In this document: one piece after another, positions 6,473-59,547 of the stretch
Numbering within the stretch: position 1 is the first letter of the stretch
How the letters are laid out: every line of letters starts with the position of its first letter
Source: Candidatus Desulforudis audaxviator MP104C
GTDB lineage: Bacteria; Bacillota; Desulfotomaculia; Desulfotomaculales; Desulforudaceae
Assembly: GCF_000018425.1 (NCBI RefSeq)
Contig: NC_010424.1
Span: 2,000,501 to 2,064,500 of the forward strand
Direction: 5' to 3'
DNA length: 64,000 nucleotides
The notes under the pieces: generated by a model
Database searches by the model: none
Told to the model about the DNA's origin: nothing
What the model saw: the letters and a program-made list of their open reading frames with translations, nothing else
Program-made: the position numbers and the translations under genes

Positions 6473-6574
6473 ATGGACCTTGTCGCCATGGCCGTTTTTG
6501 TACTCGGCGGGATCAGTGCCGGTCTTTTTTTCTTTCTGTTACGGGGCTTTGAACAGCTGCGCCGCAAGGACTAG
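6473..6574 (+). CDS. 33-aa single-helix membrane peptide
   Basis: ATG at 6473 with GGGGGTACGGAG just before it, then 33 codons to TAG. The product is one hydrophobic helix flanked by an acidic start (MDLVAM) and a charged end (EQLRRKD). It recalls small peptides found beside KdpF, but no kdp genes follow, so no function is claimed. Its stop overlaps the convergent pheA stop by 4 bases. Confidence 0.45.
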   Translation: MDLVAMAVFVLGGISAGLFFFLLRGFEQLRRKD

Positions 6575-7689
6575 CCGGGGCCACCCTGCAACTCGACGAA
6601 ATAAGGCAGCAGCAACTCATAGACTCCGGTGACTATGTCGGCATCGAGTCCCTTCCTCACGGCCAGCGCCCGCAGCCGTTCCTTGATCTCCGCTTCCCGT
6701 TCCGGGTCGCGCACCGGTCTCCCGTCCTTGAATTTCCCGGCCCGGCGCGCCAGTTCGGCCCGCTCGGCCAAGAGGGCCACAATCTGGCTGTCGGTCACGT
6801 CGATTTCGGCCCGGATCGTCTCCAGGTCGGACGACACCGGGTCCCGCGGCGTCTGAGAAGCACCGTCCGCCGGGTAGGATCCCAGGATTTTGCAAAAACT
6901 GCTTCTCGCCCGCACGCCAGCCAGAGCTTCGTCAACCTCGGGTTCACCCGGATGTCCCTCCAGATCGATGAAGAAAATGTATTCCCCCAGCCGGGTCTTG
7001 GCCGGCCGCGATTCAATGCGCGTCAGGTTGATGCCCCGGCGCGCGAATTCGCCCAGCAGGCGGTACAGGGAACCAGGACGGCGGCCATCGACCGCGACCA
7101 GGACCGTGGTCTTGTCGCCCGGCCCGGTCCGGCAGCCCCGCCGCCCGATCACCAGGAAGCGGGTGGCGTTCTCCTTGAGGTCGGCCACGTCCTCCGCCAA
7201 CACCGACAGGCCGTGCAGCCGAGCCGCTTTCCGGGTGCCCACCGCCGCCCACGGCCGGCCGGTTTGCGCCACCGCTCGTGCCGCCTCGGCGGTACTGGTG
7301 CTCTCCACCAGTTCGACCCCGGGAAAGTCTCGGGCCAGGTGCTCGCGGCACTGTGCCAGCGCCTGGGAATGAGAAATGATCCGGGTGACCCGCTCCCGGC
7401 TCACCCCCGGGCGGGCCAGCAGGTGGTGCCGGATACGGAGCACCACCTCCCCGCAGATCTGGACCCGGTCGGCCTGGTGGGCCAAAAGGTCCAGTGTCAG
7501 TCCCAGGGAACCTTCGCCCGAGTTTTCCGCCGGCAGGAGACCCCAGTCCACGCTCCCGCCCTCCACCGCCCCGACCACTTCGACCAGGGAACGCAATGGG
7601 CGGAGAAGCATCGGGCGGTCACCCGCCCACCGGGAAGCCGCTTCTTCCGAATGAGTTCCCTCCGGCCCGAGATAGGCTATGGTTTCCAT
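6571..7689 (-). CDS. pheA: prephenate dehydratase-ACT-chorismate mutase fusion
   Basis: Bifunctional enzyme for phenylalanine: chorismate to prephenate (mutase) and prephenate to phenylpyruvate (dehydratase). Residues 1-180 are the dehydratase (start AYLGPEGTHSEEA, catalytic Thr in NATRFLVIG), 190-270 an ACT domain with the ESRP motif that binds Phe, and about 285-372 an AroQ chorismate mutase (LLAERAELARRAGKFK, PVRDPEREAEIKERL). This order is the reverse of E. coli PheA, where the mutase comes first. The frame extends 8 codons upstream, but GGAG lies 8-9 bases before ATG 7689, so that start is used. It begins 13 bp after the aroF stop, in one operon behind the Phe T-box. Feedback control through the ACT domain is expected. 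Confidence 0.93.
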   Translation of the reverse strand: METIAYLGPEGTHSEEAASRWAGDRPMLLRPLRSLVEVVGAVEGGSVDWGLLPAENSGEGSLGLTLDLLAHQADRVQICGEVVLRIRHHLLARPGVSRERVTRIISHSQALAQCREHLARDFPGVELVESTSTAEAARAVAQTGRPWAAVGTRKAARLHGLSVLAEDVADLKENATRFLVIGRRGCRTGPGDKTTVLVAVDGRRPGSLYRLLGEFARRGINLTRIESRPAKTRLGEYIFFIDLEGHPGEPEVDEALAGVRARSSFCKILGSYPADGASQTPRDPVSSDLETIRAEIDVTDSQIVALLAERAELARRAGKFKDGRPVRDPEREAEIKERLRALAVRKGLDADIVTGVYELLLPYFVELQGGPG

Positions 7690-7702
7690 CGTCAACACTC
7701 CT

Positions 7703-8590
7703 TCAATCCACAACGCCCCGGTTCAACGCCCGGGCGATGATGTCCACTTCCCGCATCAGCCGGTCAAAGGCGGCCGGGTCCAGGGACTGCTTGCCGTCAC
7801 AGAGGGCTTTTTCGGGCTCCGGGTGCATCTCGACGATGATCCCGTCCGCCCCGGCCGCCACCGCCGCCAGGGACATCGGAGCGACCAGTTCCGCCCTGCC
7901 GGTGGCGTGACTCGGGTCGACGATCACCGGCAGGTGGCTCAGTTTTTTCACCAGGGAGACGGCGCTCAAGTCCAGCGTATTCCGGGTGTAGGTCTCAAAA
8001 GTACGGATGCCCCGCTCGCACAGCACCACCTGGGTATTTCCCCCGGCCAGGATGTACTCGGCCGCCATCAGCCACTCCTCGATCGTGGCGGAGAACCCGC
8101 GCTTCAAAAGCACCGGCTTGTTCGCCCGCCCCACCGCCCGCAGCAGGTGGAAGTTCTGCATGTTCCGCGAACCGACCTGGAGCATATCCACGTACTCTAC
8201 CGCCGCCGCCAGGCTCTCCTCGTCGATCACTTCGGTCACGCTGGCCAACCCCGCCGCCGCCGCGGCCTCGGCCAACAACTCGAGCCCCTCGCGCTCCAGG
8301 CCCTGGAAACTGTAGGGAGAAGTCCGGGGCTTGTAGGCGCCGCCCCGCAGGACCTTCGCCCCGGACCCGGCCGCCGCCCGGGCCGCGGCCGTCATTTGTT
8401 CCCGGCTCTCCACGGCGCACGGGCCGGCGATTACGTTCACCGCGCCAGAGCCGAACTCCGCCCGGCCCACCCGGACCACCGTGTTTGCGCCGCCGTGGCC
8501 CCTGCCGGCCAGCCGGTACGGCCGCCCCGCCGCGCAGGCCCGGACCGCCCCGGGCACCGCTTGCGGTTCTACCAATTCCATCCCCATCAT
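7703..8590 (-). CDS. aroF: DAHP synthase (type I-beta), short form
   Basis: 3-deoxy-7-phosphoheptulonate synthase condenses PEP and erythrose 4-phosphate, the first step of the shikimate pathway. Motifs in order: AGPCAVES, RGGAYKPRTSPYSFQG, LQVGSRNMQNFHLL, KPVLLKRG, CERGIRTFE and VIVDPSHATG (metal and substrate residues). The protein is 295 aa from ATG 8590, which has AGGGG nine bases upstream; earlier in-frame codons belong to the T-box terminator. I-beta enzymes with a ferredoxin-like or mutase regulatory domain at the N-terminus are about 340 aa; here that domain is missing, so allosteric feedback may be absent and control may rest on the T-box. First gene of aroF-pheA. Confidence 0.92.
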   Translation of the reverse strand: MMGMELVEPQAVPGAVRACAAGRPYRLAGRGHGGANTVVRVGRAEFGSGAVNVIAGPCAVESREQMTAAARAAAGSGAKVLRGGAYKPRTSPYSFQGLEREGLELLAEAAAAAGLASVTEVIDEESLAAAVEYVDMLQVGSRNMQNFHLLRAVGRANKPVLLKRGFSATIEEWLMAAEYILAGGNTQVVLCERGIRTFETYTRNTLDLSAVSLVKKLSHLPVIVDPSHATGRAELVAPMSLAAVAAGADGIIVEMHPEPEKALCDGKQSLDPAAFDRLMREVDIIARALNRGVVD

Positions 8591-8599
8591 CTCAAGCAT

Positions 8600-9045
8600 C
8601 CCCTTTGTATTAAGAATAAAAAAGCCCGGCCTTCGTCCGGGACGAAAGCCGGGCTTCCGCGGTACCACCCCGATAGACCCACAAAGTGAGTCCACTCTAT
8701 ACTAAAGGTACGGGAGCGCTTTCCCAAAACCCGGCGCAAATAAAAAACTTTTCATCCCTGCAAGGACGAAAAGCTTTTTTGCTTTCCGCGGTACCACCCT
8801 GGTTGGTCAAAGGACCCGCTCTTTGCGCCGGGTACGGGACCATTAAGCGTCCGATACCCATCCCTTTTAACGGTGGGAAATCCGTCTCGGCCTACTTACC
8901 CGCCTGCCGGCGGTTTTCAACCGGGCGACTCGGGGGAGAACTTCAACGGGTCAGACCCTGAAAGCGCTTCCAGTCGACGACGCTTTCTCCCTGGAGAGCT
9001 GAAAACCGCCTACTTTTCCCCGTCACGGCCTTTGCATGATTAAGT
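8600..9045 (-). promoter_or_regulatory. Phe-specific T-box leader with duplicated antiterminator/terminator
   Basis: On the minus strand a T-box leader precedes aroF. Stem I begins near 9030 (GTGACGGGGAAAAGTA, the conserved AGTA loop). The likely specifier codon is TTC (Phe, 8940-8938) in the GAAG-TTC-TCC context. The conserved AGTAGGCC...CCGTTA region follows near 8895-8865. The first T-box sequence AGGGTGGTACCGCGG lies at 8799-8785 with its terminator ending in TTTTTT near 8745. A second GGGGTGGTACCGCGG follows at 8671-8657 with a second terminator (AAGCCCGGCTTTCGTC pairing with GACGAAGGCCGGGCTT, then T residues). No second stem I lies between them. In known T-boxes, uncharged tRNA pairs with both specifier and antiterminator and prevents termination. 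Confidence 0.9.
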
Positions 9046-9056
9046 TGCTGAAAAGT

Positions 9057-9085
9057 ATCATACCAGGACCTGTGCCCATTGTCAA
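9057..9085 (-). promoter_or_regulatory. sigma-A promoter of the aroF-pheA operon
   Basis: Minus strand TTGACA (9085-9080) and TATGAT (9062-9057) with 17 bp between them, a near-consensus promoter whose start would fall at about 9050, just ahead of stem I of the T-box. Confidence 0.85.
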
Positions 9086-13588: not shown

Positions 13589-15118
13589 CTAAAACCTGTC
13601 TGCGTAAAGAAGCGCTACCCTGTCGCTGAAATGAGTCTTTTTAAGCCTGTTGGATACTCTCAACCAGTAATTGCGCCTGGAAGTCCTCTTCCTTTCGGGT
13701 AGTTTCAACACGGAGCTTTTTGTCGCTTTTTCCAGCTTAAATCCCAGGCCGCGCCGGGCAATGACGCAGGCCGCTGAACCGTGGGAGGACAAGCCGTAAC
13801 GGACCATGAACTTGAGCTGCCCGATGACTGATGTGGCGAAGGGATCAACGTTTTTCCCATCAGGCTTCAGGAGTTCCACCCCTTCCCGGAGGATACAGGA
13901 TTCCACCATCATACGGAATTGCCTGTAAGTCAAGCCGGAGAGCATCCTGGCATGTTTTGTACCTGACTCCCGCAGGGCCTGTTTCTTTTTGGCGAAGTCC
14001 AGGTTCTCGATTGCTATGGGTTTCCCTCTTTCCTTCGCGTACAGAACTGCTTTTTTGACTGCTTCGCCCAGAGCAGCTTTTACCTGGTTTTTACTCCTGT
14101 CACGCATCGGAACCGGGATTTCGAATTCGTTTAAAGGATTGCCGAAGCGGTCAATGTCGCTCACCCGGAGGAAGTCGTCGTTTAAGTCAATACCCACGGC
14201 GCCATTCCATCTGCTGGTCCGCAGCGGCGAAGCTTCCACCTCCGTCGTCGCATGTACGTACCAGCTATCACCCCTGCGGAGAAAACGGTAGGATATAGCC
14301 GCTGTGCATTCCTTCCTGCCCTTGACAATTCTTCTAACTGTCCTGGCCCTGTCCAGGTGTTCCTGGCCGTAGGGAAAAACGATGCCGGTCAACTCGATGT
14401 ATCTGCCGAATTCTTTGGTGAACTTACCGGCTACCCGTATCCTCAGGGTGTTGTCCCGAAAGTACGTGCAGGTCTGGTTGCCGCAGGTCTCGTCCTTTGA
14501 GCCAAGAATAAAAAAGCTGGAAGAACGCGCTTTTCTCCAGGCAGTGACCCACTCTGCGTGGTCCTTAAAACCGTTCGCCGCCAAATTGTGCTGGGCCTTG
14601 AAGAGCTTGCGGGTGCCAAAACAGATCCGGACGATGCCCCGTGCCATGTCTTTGCTCAGGTTCTCCAGTCTCTGCCGGAGGTTCCGCAGCCTCCTCTTTT
14701 TCTGGTGAATGATAAACTTGATTCCCTTTAACCGGTCGATTTTCTCCTGCCACTTCTCCGTGCGGGGCTGGAGTTTCTTGAGTGACTTTATAATTTTATC
14801 CCGTTTTTCTTCTTTTTCCTTAATCGCCTTCTCCGTCGAAGCAATGCGGCCCAGGAGGTCGCGTTCCTGGTATTCCTGGATCTCTCTTATCGATTCGATT
14901 TTCCCGGAAAGGCTGTTATTAAGTGAATTGAACTGCCGGGCAGTTATCCTGTACTCTTTTATATACCTTTTTTTAAGCTCGGTTACCGGTGCTCCGCGGA
15001 CGTAATGGCCAACGAAGAGTTTCCTTTCCAGACGGCCGAAGTATTCGACCATGGCGTCGAAATAAGGGTAGTGTACTCTTTCATCTATTCTAGCCCGGTA
15101 GGTGGCCTGCATTTTCAA
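13589..15118 (-). CDS. TnpB-like RNA-guided nuclease homologue, zinc finger and third RuvC acid missing
   Basis: A 509-aa transposon accessory protein. The N-terminal half (about 60-170) is long and coiled-coil-like (many K/E/R residues). The RuvC-like half shows GIDLNDDFLRV with Asp311 and IAIENLDF with Glu371. The usual CxxC...CxxC zinc finger between the second and third motifs is absent (VDPFATSVIGQLKFM instead), and where active TnpB has D-x-N-A-A, this protein has SSHGSAACVIARRGL, with His446 at the Asp position. TnpB relatives with VNP-x-TSVIG and SVHQAAALxIARR motifs are, to my knowledge, frequent in Firmicutes. It overlaps the recombinase gene by 29 bp. Whether it still cuts DNA is open. 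Confidence 0.85.
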   Translation of the reverse strand: MKMQATYRARIDERVHYPYFDAMVEYFGRLERKLFVGHYVRGAPVTELKKRYIKEYRITARQFNSLNNSLSGKIESIREIQEYQERDLLGRIASTEKAIKEKEEKRDKIIKSLKKLQPRTEKWQEKIDRLKGIKFIIHQKKRRLRNLRQRLENLSKDMARGIVRICFGTRKLFKAQHNLAANGFKDHAEWVTAWRKARSSSFFILGSKDETCGNQTCTYFRDNTLRIRVAGKFTKEFGRYIELTGIVFPYGQEHLDRARTVRRIVKGRKECTAAISYRFLRRGDSWYVHATTEVEASPLRTSRWNGAVGIDLNDDFLRVSDIDRFGNPLNEFEIPVPMRDRSKNQVKAALGEAVKKAVLYAKERGKPIAIENLDFAKKKQALRESGTKHARMLSGLTYRQFRMMVESCILREGVELLKPDGKNVDPFATSVIGQLKFMVRYGLSSHGSAACVIARRGLGFKLEKATKSSVLKLPERKRTSRRNYWLRVSNRLKKTHFSDRVALLYADRF

Positions 15119-15740
15119 TCACCTCCCTTATTTTTGAGGTCACTTCTTCTTTTTTCTTACTCCTGATGCCGTAGAGCTTTCCGGAAAAACTGGTGACGAT
15201 ACTGAGGAGGTCTTCCACCAGTTCTTCGTAAACCGTTTTCTTGTCTCCTTCACCATTTATGACGTGGATTTTCACGCCATAGCTTTCAAAACAGGTTTTC
15301 AGGTAGTTGAAACCGAAACGGGTCAGCCTGTCTTTGTAGCTTACGGCCAGGTCGGTTATTTTGCCTTTGCGGGCTAACTGCATCAGTTTTAGCAGACCCT
15401 TTCTTCTGTCATTTAAGCCGGAGGAAACGTCGGTGACCACCAGAATATCGTCGAAGAGGCGGTGGTCGAATTTCTTCCTGACCGACTCAACTTGCCTGTC
15501 CAGGTCTCCTTTGGCTTTCTGCTCGTGGGAAGAAACCCGGGCGTAAATGGCCAGCACCCGGCCGGCAGACACCGGTTCCTTTTCCCCAAGTAGCCTTTTG
15601 ATCTCAGATTCGGGGATCCTCCTCCTACCGCCGGGAGTGCGAACAATTTTTATTTTGCCCGCTTTATCCCAGCGCTGGAGTGTTTTTAAAGATACACCTA
15701 GGATTTTCATTGTTTCATGCATCGGATAGAGCTTTTCCAT
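15090..15740 (-). CDS. tnpA: IS607-type serine recombinase (TnpA)
   Basis: A 216-aa transposase: an N-terminal MerR-like helix-turn-helix (residues 1-50, SLKTLQRWDKAGKIK, GGRRRIPESEI) followed by a serine-recombinase catalytic domain with YARVSSHEQ (nucleophile about Ser70) and the DRLTRFG active-site arginine motif. IS607 recombinases put the DNA-binding domain first, unlike resolvases, which is what is seen here. It is transcribed with tnpB on the minus strand. The protein looks complete, so the element may still move. Confidence 0.92.
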   Translation of the reverse strand: MEKLYPMHETMKILGVSLKTLQRWDKAGKIKIVRTPGGRRRIPESEIKRLLGEKEPVSAGRVLAIYARVSSHEQKAKGDLDRQVESVRKKFDHRLFDDILVVTDVSSGLNDRRKGLLKLMQLARKGKITDLAVSYKDRLTRFGFNYLKTCFESYGVKIHVINGEGDKKTVYEELVEDLLSIVTSFSGKLYGIRSKKKEEVTSKIREVIENAGHLPG

Positions 15741-22745: not shown

Positions 22746-24317
22746 GTCCGTGTCAAGACTTAGTAGGCGATCTCCCAGCCGATTTAATTTGAATTAGACC
22801 GTAGACCACCTCGGTGAACTAATCTCTCTTACTATGTGCTTGACCCAGTGTTTTCCGGCGTGCGGTCCTTCAAGGGCGGGCACGTTGGCTTGAAGCCAGG
22901 CCTCGGGATCTTTGCCGAAGCGTTTGGGCAGTTGGATTGCCTCGGCTCCGACAGCCTTTTTCAGTAGGTCGAACCGGGGTTCCGAGTGTACCACGTATCT
23001 GTCCAGCTCATCATTAGCCCGTACCGCTAACAGGCGTCCCATCCGTTCCGCACCGGCCGGGCTCCAACGCGCCCCAATCCGCTTTGTTCGCCTGGCGATG
23101 GTGTGACGGACCTGGCCCTCGATCGCACCTAAACGGTCTCCCTCCGGCAAGGCGGCGATACCTTGCCAGTTAGCCAGGAGATACTCCTTAAGCCGCATGA
23201 TCCCGTTACGGCGTGCACCCCGGTTGACCCGAATCGCCTGATCCAAGGCGGAAACTACCGCATCTTGGTTTAGCTCGGCTAACCCTTCGGTGACAGTTTC
23301 ATAGACGTTGCTGCTGTAACTTAAAGCCTCGGTTAAACGCCGGCGCAGGTGGAAGGGGTCAAGGTGGTAAGTCGCCCCGGGGAACATCTCCAGGCCTTGT
23401 TTGATCCACTCGGCGCCGTCCCCACCAATGCGGATCCGCTCTACCCTGCTAAGGTCCCACTTGTGGCCGAAGGCCGCCCCGGTGTCTTCCCAAGCCACCC
23501 GGCTGCCCCTGGCGGTGGCCACCGTGTAACGGTTCACCAGTTTCCGGGTCTTTTGTTCCCTGCCCTCGTAGCCGATAAACAGCTTGATCTCACCAAACGC
23601 CTTGGGCGACCGCTGCAAGGGTATTACTACACCATCGGCTTCAATGGATAACTCCCGAACCTCCTTGCCGCCTTCAGGAACCACACCGTCTTCAAAGACG
23701 GCCTCGCGTAGTGCCTCAGCATCCCGGGCGGCCTTTTCTCCAGCATCCTGAACCTTAGACCAGACGGTCATCCAGTGAATCCCCGGTACTAGAAAACCCA
23801 TAACCCGGGCCGCGCGCCTGAAGGGCATCTCCGTGCCTAGCTCCAGGATCATACGGGTCATCCGCGGTGTCACCCGTTGGCGTTCAGGGATTCCCAAGGC
23901 TTCGTCCAGAAGGAACCGGTACGCGCCGGTCTTCTGGTTACGGTACAGTCGGCGCTTAACCGTAATCTCACCGAAGCTGGTGACCAGGGTCCGCGACCGC
24001 TGTCCCACGTTCTTGAGGGCTGGATCCCGCTTGCCGCTTAACTCAAGGTCAATGTGTGCCAGCGCCTCCTCCAGCATTTTGCCGCCTGCCTGTTGAACCA
24101 ACCGCTGCACCCGCTCTTCCAACTCATCCACATTGCGCACCGACCTGAACACCTCAAAAATTCCCTTGGCCAGAAACAGGACTACCTCAAGCAGAAAGCG
24201 AATCTTGAACATGAGACCTCACTCCTTTGGCGGGGAGGGCTTCCCCTCAGGGGAAGCCGTTTTGAGGTCTCACTTCTATTTCCGACCTCACATCTCCTAC
24301 TTAAACCTTACACTCAC
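22746..24317 (-). mobile_element. ISLre2-family insertion sequence, copy 1
   Basis: A 1572-bp element with exact ends: GTCCGTGTCAAG on the left and ACTCAC on the right, imperfect inverted repeats of about 22 bp (left GTCCGTGTCAAGACTTAGTA against right-end GTGAGTGTAAGGTTTAAGTA) and a 9-bp target duplication ACCGAAGAA at 22737-22745 and 24318-24326. A GGCTTCCCC-TCA-GGGGAAGCC hairpin lies upstream of the transposase gene, inside the element. Nearly identical to copy 2 at 57979. Confidence 0.96.
22794..24212 (-). CDS. ISLre2-family transposase (copy 1)
   Basis: A 472-aa transposase of the ISLre2/UPF0236 family, complete. Recognisable stretches are TLVTSFGEITVKRRLYRN, ELSIEADGVVIPLQ and YHLDPFHLRRRLTEAL with acidic residues expected for a DDE enzyme. 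It differs from copy 2 by Asn27 for Asp27, one Val/Ala change and one extra Pro in HSEPRFDLL. Confidence 0.95.
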   Translation of the reverse strand: MFKIRFLLEVVLFLAKGIFEVFRSVRNVDELEERVQRLVQQAGGKMLEEALAHIDLELSGKRDPALKNVGQRSRTLVTSFGEITVKRRLYRNQKTGAYRFLLDEALGIPERQRVTPRMTRMILELGTEMPFRRAARVMGFLVPGIHWMTVWSKVQDAGEKAARDAEALREAVFEDGVVPEGGKEVRELSIEADGVVIPLQRSPKAFGEIKLFIGYEGREQKTRKLVNRYTVATARGSRVAWEDTGAAFGHKWDLSRVERIRIGGDGAEWIKQGLEMFPGATYHLDPFHLRRRLTEALSYSSNVYETVTEGLAELNQDAVVSALDQAIRVNRGARRNGIMRLKEYLLANWQGIAALPEGDRLGAIEGQVRHTIARRTKRIGARWSPAGAERMGRLLAVRANDELDRYVVHSEPRFDLLKKAVGAEAIQLPKRFGKDPEAWLQANVPALEGPHAGKHWVKHIVREISSPRWSTV

Positions 24318-57978: not shown

Positions 57979-59547
57979 GTCCGTGTCAAGACTTAGTAGG
58001 CGATCTCCCAGCCGATTTAATTTGAATTAGACCGTAGACCACCTCGGTGAACTAATCTCTCTTACTATGTGCTTGACCCAGTGTTTTCCGGCGTGCGGTC
58101 CTTCAAGGGCGGGCACGTTGGCTTGAAGCCAGGCCTCGGGATCTTTGCCGAAGCGTTTGGGCAGTTGGATTGCCTCGGCTCCGACAGCCTTTTTCAGTAG
58201 GTCGAACCGTTCCGAGTGTACCGCGTATCTGTCCAGCTCATCATTAGCCCGTACCGCTAACAGGCGTCCCATCCGTTCCGCACCGGCCGGGCTCCAACGC
58301 GCCCCAATCCGCTTTGTTCGCCTGGCGATGGTGTGACGGACCTGGCCCTCGATCGCACCTAAACGGTCTCCCTCCGGCAAGGCGGCGATACCTTGCCAGT
58401 TAGCCAGGAGATACTCCTTAAGCCGCATGATCCCGTTACGGCGTGCACCCCGGTTGACCCGAATCGCCTGGTCCAAGGCGGAAACTACCGCATCTTGGTT
58501 TAGCTCGGCTAACCCTTCGGTGACAGTTTCATAGACGTTGCTGCTGTAACTTAAAGCCTCGGTTAAACGCCGGCGCAGGTGGAAGGGGTCAAGGTGGTAA
58601 GTCGCCCCGGGGAACATCTCCAGGCCTTGTTTGATCCACTCGGCGCCGTCCCCACCAATGCGGATCCGCTCTACCCTGCTAAGGTCCCACTTGTGGCCGA
58701 AGGCCGCCCCGGTGTCTTCCCAAGCCACCCGGCTGCCCCTGGCGGTGGCCACCGTGTAACGGTTCACCAGTTTCCGGGTCTTTTGTTCCCTGCCCTCGTA
58801 GCCGATAAACAGCTTGATCTCACCAAACGCCTTGGGCGACCGCTGCAAGGGTATTACTACACCATCGGCTTCAATGGATAACTCCCGAACCTCCTTGCCG
58901 CCTTCAGGAACCACACCGTCTTCAAAGACGGCCTCGCGTAGTGCCTCAGCATCCCGGGCGGCCTTTTCTCCAGCATCCTGAACCTTAGACCAGACGGTCA
59001 TCCAGTGAATCCCCGGTACTAGAAAACCCATAACCCGGGCCGCGCGCCTGAAGGGCATCTCCGTGCCTAGCTCCAGGATCATACGGGTCATCCGCGGTGT
59101 CACCCGTTGGCGTTCAGGGATTCCCAAGGCTTCGTCCAGAAGGAACCGGTACGCGCCGGTCTTCTGGTTACGGTACAGTCGGCGCTTAACCGTAATCTCA
59201 CCGAAGCTGGTGACCAGGGTCCGCGACCGCTGTCCCACGTTCTTGAGGGCTGGATCCCGCTTGCCGCTTAACTCAAGGTCAATGTGTGCCAGCGCCTCCT
59301 CCAGCATTTTGCCGCCTGCCTGTTGAACCAACCGCTGCACCCGCTCTTCCAACTCATCCACATCGCGCACCGACCTGAACACCTCAAAAATTCCCTTGGC
59401 CAGAAACAGGACTACCTCAAGCAGAAAGCGAATCTTGAACATGAGACCTCACTCCTTTGGCGGGGAGGGCTTCCCCTCAGGGGAAGCCGTTTTGAGGTCT
59501 CACTTCTATTTCCGACCTCACATCTCCTACTTAAACCTTACACTCAC
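57979..59547 (-). mobile_element. ISLre2-family insertion sequence, copy 2
   Basis: A 1569-bp copy, three bases shorter than copy 1 and otherwise nearly identical, in the same orientation. Its ends are the same (GTCCGTGTC and ACTCAC), and its own 9-bp target duplication is CCGGGCTCA at 57970-57978 and 59548-59556. It lies about 60 bp upstream of the tRNA-Cys gene. Confidence 0.96.
58027..59442 (-). CDS. ISLre2-family transposase (copy 2)
   Basis: A 471-aa full-length transposase, the same as copy 1 except for Asp27, one Ala for Val and the absence of a Pro in HSERFDLL. Both copies appear intact and could supply transposase. Confidence 0.95.
   Translation of the reverse strand: MFKIRFLLEVVLFLAKGIFEVFRSVRDVDELEERVQRLVQQAGGKMLEEALAHIDLELSGKRDPALKNVGQRSRTLVTSFGEITVKRRLYRNQKTGAYRFLLDEALGIPERQRVTPRMTRMILELGTEMPFRRAARVMGFLVPGIHWMTVWSKVQDAGEKAARDAEALREAVFEDGVVPEGGKEVRELSIEADGVVIPLQRSPKAFGEIKLFIGYEGREQKTRKLVNRYTVATARGSRVAWEDTGAAFGHKWDLSRVERIRIGGDGAEWIKQGLEMFPGATYHLDPFHLRRRLTEALSYSSNVYETVTEGLAELNQDAVVSALDQAIRVNRGARRNGIMRLKEYLLANWQGIAALPEGDRLGAIEGQVRHTIARRTKRIGARWSPAGAERMGRLLAVRANDELDRYAVHSERFDLLKKAVGAEAIQLPKRFGKDPEAWLQANVPALEGPHAGKHWVKHIVREISSPRWSTV

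Follow-up and report, generated by a model that had tools for sequence, protein, structure and literature searches.

Two serial expression platforms behind one stem I in a Phe-specific T-box, and a possible strand exchange between them

Partially tandem T-boxes were reportedly described by Vitreschak in 2008. In such leaders the 3' part is repeated behind a single 5' sensor; a review mentions that they exist and that how they act is unknown (PMC7583486). The window analysed here, a stretch of 64,000 nucleotides, holds one of them on its minus strand, from 9049 to 8606, upstream of aroF-pheA. It raises the question of how one tRNA sensor can operate two transcription terminators in series.

Anatomy of the leader and its tRNA

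The RNA is a Phe-specific transcriptional T-box with a single sensor and two expression platforms in series. Its features, in window coordinates, are as follows.

9057..9085, minus: sigma-70-type promoter, TTGACA-17-TATGAT (11 of 12 consensus matches)
8926..9029, minus: single stem I, with K-turn-like base, AGGGA/UGGAA distal motif and specifier loop (Rfam RF00230 alignment)
8938..8940, minus: specifier UUC (Phe) in the context GAA-G-UUC-U (sequence and RF00230 alignment)
8868..8925, minus: stem II (S-turn) and stem IIA/B pseudoknot region, 3' end CCGUUA (RF00230 alignment)
8845..8859, minus: X, the single 5' strand GGGTATCGGA (8859-8850) with loop toehold CGCTT (8849-8845)
8830..8839, minus: X'1, TCCCGTACCC, forming a local hairpin with X
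8822..8833, minus: E5, ACCCGGCGCAAA, 5' strand of a helix around module 1
8800..8821, minus: stem III of module 1 (RF00230 alignment)
8764..8799, minus: antiterminator 1, GGGTGGTACCGCG ... CGTCC, bulge UGGU
8737..8780, minus: terminator 1 (T1), hairpin and U-run, -18.0 kcal/mol
8729..8740, minus: E3, TTTGCGCCGGGT, exact complement of E5
8707..8721, minus: X'2, AAGCGC-TCCCGTACC, second partner of X, its extension complementary to the X loop
8672..8706, minus: linker and stem III of module 2 (fold)
8640..8670, minus: antiterminator 2, GGGTGGTACCGCG ... CGTCCC, bulge UGGU
8614..8658, minus: terminator 2 (T2), hairpin and U-run, -30.6 kcal/mol
7703..8599, minus: aroF, DAHP synthase (Pfam PF00793, E 2.7e-77)
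6571..7713, minus: pheA, prephenate dehydratase-ACT-chorismate mutase (Pfam PF00800, PF01817, PF01842)

Transcription from this strong promoter would start near 9049, and position 9085, where the earlier note had placed the end of this region, is the end of the promoter. On the 3' side of the leader aroF comes first and then pheA (8599-6571); the start codon of aroF may be at 8590 instead of 8599.

The earlier note had read the region as a single stem I with a Phe specifier, followed by two antiterminators each with its own terminator, and both parts of this reading are borne out. Rfam gives one T-box (RF00230) at 9035-8759 on the minus strand, with an E-value of 5.7e-19, matched over the full model length and with UUC at 8940-8938. 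The covariance-model score of 85.3 bits falls short of the gathering score for RF00230, which is 93, and this T-box is therefore absent from a default Rfam scan; the inserted X hairpin is the probable reason for the low score. A cryptic second stem I between the modules was sought, and neither Rfam nor the sequence revealed a second T-box or stem I there; the distance from the end of T1 to antiterminator 2 is about 70 nt. The leader is thus partially tandem, and not fully tandem with a stem I for each module. The antiterminators contain exact copies of GGTGGTACCGCGG (8798-8786 and 8669-8657, minus strand), 129 nt apart, with no further copy in the 64-kb window, and the two-module pattern matches the window once, compared with no match in 100 shuffles. 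Folding gives each module a mutually exclusive terminator with a U-run. A simple consensus terminator scan lists T2 and omits T1, probably because the A-tract of T1 pairs with its U-tract.

The base 3' of the specifier is U, instead of the usual purine; this base is variable across the whole family, and the specifier itself is UUC in nearly all relatives with an X strand. The genome has a tRNA-Phe(GAA) gene, the sole one found among the best 30 of 44 tRNA matches, with the 3' end ACCA, to which the UGGU of both antiterminators is complementary. The argument of the earlier note, that the second switch can be read only if the same tRNA engages it from the one stem I or if it responds to something else, gains weight from the related loci. 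Base N of UGGN is identical in both modules in 106 of 117 loci (permuted mean 70, maximum 83), a figure inflated by relatedness among the loci. Together with the single stem I, this match favours one tRNA being tested twice. A second input, in which module 2 would sense a signal other than tRNA-Phe, for example through X'2 or E, is highly improbable: nothing positive speaks for it, the bulge of antiterminator 2 is of the standard T-box kind and repeats the base that matches the tRNA, module 2 has a stem III, and Rfam places no other RNA family above its own threshold in the region.

In about 13 of 66 loci the bulge of one module deviates from UGGNACC. In the loci listed below, UGGUAAC, UGGUAUC or UGGUAGC stands in place of the nearly universal UGGUACC, never in both modules of a locus.

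Deviant bulge in module 1: L117, L124-L126, L128, L130-L134, L138, L140
Deviant bulge in module 2: L114, L122, L123

One 5' strand and two 3' partners

According to the earlier note, the segment before each antiterminator had been duplicated with the module. TCCCGTACC does occur 5' of both modules, at 8839 and 8715, but it is more than the footprint of a duplication: as X'1 it supplies the 3' side of a hairpin, and the 5' side of that hairpin, X, is present once and can pair with either copy. This hairpin lies between IIA/B and the stem III of module 1, with the IIB strand GGGA immediately 5' of X, and joins GGGTATCGGA (8859-8850) to TCCCGTACCC (8839-8830). The X'2 repeat (8715-8707) comes without a comparable 5' strand. 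We considered a local partner for X'2 and rejected it, as X:X'2 is the stabler pairing in 55 of 57 loci (median -15.4 vs -5.4 kcal/mol); in the present leader the weaker local partner is GGGA/UCCC, at -11.2 vs -17.6 kcal/mol. X:X'2 is also at least as stable as X:X'1 in 49 of 51 loci. X is the best partner of X'2, and this one strand could therefore pair with either X'1 or X'2.

The complementarity of the core proves little alone, because X'2 duplicates X'1 and complements X partly by descent from that duplication. In many loci, though, further pairs with the loop of the X hairpin prolong the X:X'2 helix, and X'1 could hardly pair with this loop on steric grounds. Such extensions are GGATGAGT/ACTCATCC in L118, ATGTTATT/AATAGCAT in L134 and, with one bulged base, CGCTT/AAGCG in the present leader; in L128 the X:X'2 helix is 20 nt long. 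Contiguous extension pairs across 56 loci number 126, against 43±9 after permutation and 64±8 after permutation within clades (0 of 5000), where the permutations are not tree-based and leave some shared ancestry in. The flank of X'1 also pairs above chance (84 vs 37), and the test was therefore rerun on loci with dissimilar flanks, which gave 64 extension pairs against 25±7 (0 of 5000). Position 3 of the core changes in concert in X, X'1 and X'2 (G/C/C in 30 loci and A/U/U in 16, never A/C), and in L041 CC-GG replaces GG-CC in all three strands.

Duplex energies of entire segments, one taken before antiterminator 1 and the other after T1, were too noisy and were dropped in favour of local complementarity with partner swapping and motif-anchored tests. 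RNAalifold, run on 20 sequences, shows X:X'1 alone because it cannot represent two alternatives, and named structures were counted for this reason. In these counts, on a 20-sequence alignment, both X pairings gave 0 of 500 for paired cells and for the covariation score, and slid controls were far lower for both. Comparison of the sequences gives good support to the pairing of X with both X'1 and X'2.

The loop extension bears on the idea that one module is a decaying duplicate, that the other does all the work and that X'2 complements X as a remnant of the duplication. Decay of module 1 is seen in two loci, L238 and L139, and the bulge deviations confined to one module would suit this idea as well. 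The extension into the X loop, however, covaries and is no part of the duplicated core, many genera retain the two modules intact, and both modules have terminator hairpins with U-runs in 57 of 57 loci. We regard a decaying relic as quite unlikely.

A proposed hand-off between the modules

In the present leader ACCCGGCGCAAA and TTTGCGCCGGGT form a perfect helix of 12 bp, E, which encloses module 1; across 50 loci helix E reaches 809, against 635±21 (0 of 5000). The spacing from X' to the antiterminator is 32.0±4.7 nt in module 1 and 30.9±3.3 nt in module 2, with 31 and 36 nt in the present leader. A transcript of this leader ending at T1 folds with X:X'1. For the transcript through X'2, the fold with X:X'2 and E is calculated at -77.5 kcal/mol, compared with -70.2 kcal/mol when X:X'1 is imposed, with tRNA, pseudoknots and kinetics ignored in both; on these values, transcription of X'2 would give the exchange of X'1 for X'2 an advantage of about 7 kcal/mol. 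The freed X'1 is absorbed in this fold by an extension of helix E. From the end of IIA/B onward, X:X'2 and E are both present in the minimum-energy fold, and E is present again when the whole leader is folded.

We propose, and consider reasonably probable, that the one sensor and the two platforms are joined by RNA strand exchange and that the same tRNA is tested twice. Stem I would bind tRNA-Phe, and the X:X'1 hairpin would put module 1 at working distance from stem I and IIA/B. Uncharged tRNA would stabilise antiterminator 1 and T1 would be passed; with charged tRNA, T1 would stop transcription. Upon read-through of T1, E3 and X'2 would emerge, helix E would close round module 1, and X'2 would nucleate on the loop of the X hairpin as its toehold and oust X'1, leaving module 1 as a looped-out arm. 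Module 2 would then take the place of module 1, X'2 lying at nearly the same distance from its antiterminator, and the tRNA still bound to stem I would be retested; T2 would be passed, and aroF-pheA expressed, only if that tRNA is still uncharged. Two sequential tests of one tRNA would be expected to give low leakage and a sharper response. Without an exchange of this kind, antiterminator 2 would be out of reach for a tRNA held at antiterminator 1, and T2 would block transcription constantly. Sequence comparison and energy calculations support the anatomy, both pairings of X, helix E, the similar spacing and the matching bulges; the order and kinetics of events, the way antiterminator 1 lets go of the tRNA end and the regulatory gain are inferred.

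Alternatively, X:X'2 and E could lock module 1 away or block its refolding into T1 with no hand-off, and antiterminator 2 could be stable by itself or read the 3' end of another tRNA, leaving module 2 weakly regulated. E and X:X'2 would form regardless of the fate of the tRNA, and the reading of a second tRNA-Phe in trans would likewise lead to matching bulges. In T-boxes generally, however, a free NCCA end makes few pairs to the bulge and is weakly held without stem I, and the similar spacing from X' to the antiterminator in both modules would be needless. Such insulation is possible but doubtful.

A hand-off by strand exchange, which we prefer, would be a specific and conserved mechanism in which one 5' strand with two 3' strands would let one sensor drive two serial switches, and it predicts precisely which mutations should make the two terminators independent of each other. 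If true, it would be a natural RNA strand displacement used for the sequential checking of one ligand, and a design outside the riboswitch classification of PMC9481103. The leader resembles a Phe-specific RF00230 T-box in its stem I, specifier, stem II, IIA/B, stem III, antiterminator/terminator and aroF-pheA target, but it differs by having a second 3' module, helix E and, inserted between IIA/B and stem III, the X hairpin. With the partially tandem T-boxes it shares the single 5' sensor and the repeated 3' part (PMC7583486), while the literature examined describes no strand-exchange helix or hand-off for them. In fully tandem T-boxes (trp, thrS) serial terminators are likewise expected to sharpen the response, but each platform has a complete sensor and each module binds its own tRNA (PMC12452182), whereas here two modules follow one stem I. 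Pseudo-cooperative tandem riboswitches also have several expression platforms for one ligand, with every platform paired with its own aptamer (PMC9481103). Both this paper and a survey of contiguous riboswitches from 2025 (PMC12452182) deal with complete switches that are repeated, or with one platform that has several aptamers; a case of one sensor with two platforms was found in neither, and the layout or the extra stem may have been noticed earlier elsewhere. What is new here is the explanation of the shared TCCCGTACC as an alternative 3' partner of X; the partially tandem layout was already known.

Distribution and relatives

The expectation of the earlier note that partly doubled T-boxes are rare did not hold. 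A strict pattern of two T-box sequences at short spacing, run on a collection with one genome per species, returned 104 stretches, some of them false; among 113 genomes from the class of the present bacterium, 29 have the two-T-box pattern, and the reversed control pattern has no match in these 113. On these sequence counts the architecture of a single sensor with two modules is widespread, not rare. Comparison of about 100 related switches suggests that a built-in strand swap passes the sensor from module 1 to module 2.

Loci with X precede genes for DAHP synthase, phenylacetate-CoA-ligase-like enzymes, Na+/solute symporters, substrate-binding proteins and trpE, and a Lactobacillaceae group is found upstream of ABC transporter permeases. 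Support from an independent lineage comes from the Lactobacillaceae doubles, which have the same layout in unrelated sequences (for example X GGAGTTTAGTGATAA and X'2 TTATCACTAAACTCC), and their complementarity is 352 with the own partner, against 219±20 with swapped partners (0 of 5000). We see an even chance that Peptococcia/Syntrophomonadia and, with unrelated sequences, Lactobacillaceae share a class of switches in which toehold-driven exchange of X'1 for X'2 loops out platform 1 and the same tRNA is proof-read twice.

In L238 and L139 the T-box sequence of antiterminator 1 and X'1 have decayed, and X:X'2 is kept and is longer; these natural mutants speak for the hand-off and are a test case for it. 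X'1 is absent and X:X'2 kept in L027, and L030 is a double without a clear X'2. No such helix was found in Pyramidobacter, Chloroflexi and some other matches to the pattern; in all of these either the switch works differently or the pattern is misleading. Further candidates were rejected as partial T-boxes: L012 consists of repeats in a Spirochaetia bin, L013 has an N gap, and L025, L042 and L047 have chance second matches in apparently coding DNA.

The idea that X is restricted to doubles was rejected, as an X hairpin is also present in single T-boxes from relatives, in about 6 of 82. These are mainly leuA-like, with one each aroF-like, metS-like and paaK-like (named by eye). X therefore did not arise for the hand-off, and the hairpin is probably older than the duplication of the module. 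In L245, L199, L201, L202 and L228, all single T-boxes of relatives and some of them at metS-like and leuA-like genes, an X-type hairpin lies as an additional T-box element between IIA/B and stem III. L107 (6730-7100) has one stem I with a UUC-type specifier (GAA-G-UUC-A), three T-box sequences 63-66 nt apart and an aroF-like ORF downstream.

Elsewhere in the window, 22993-24317 and 58223-59547 form a direct repeat, 99.8% identical and with a 472-aa transposase-like ORF, and represent two copies of an insertion sequence. On the minus strand at 13589-15740, a serine-resolvase-like ORF is followed by a TnpB-like ORF (both named by eye), and this segment looks like an IS607-type element.
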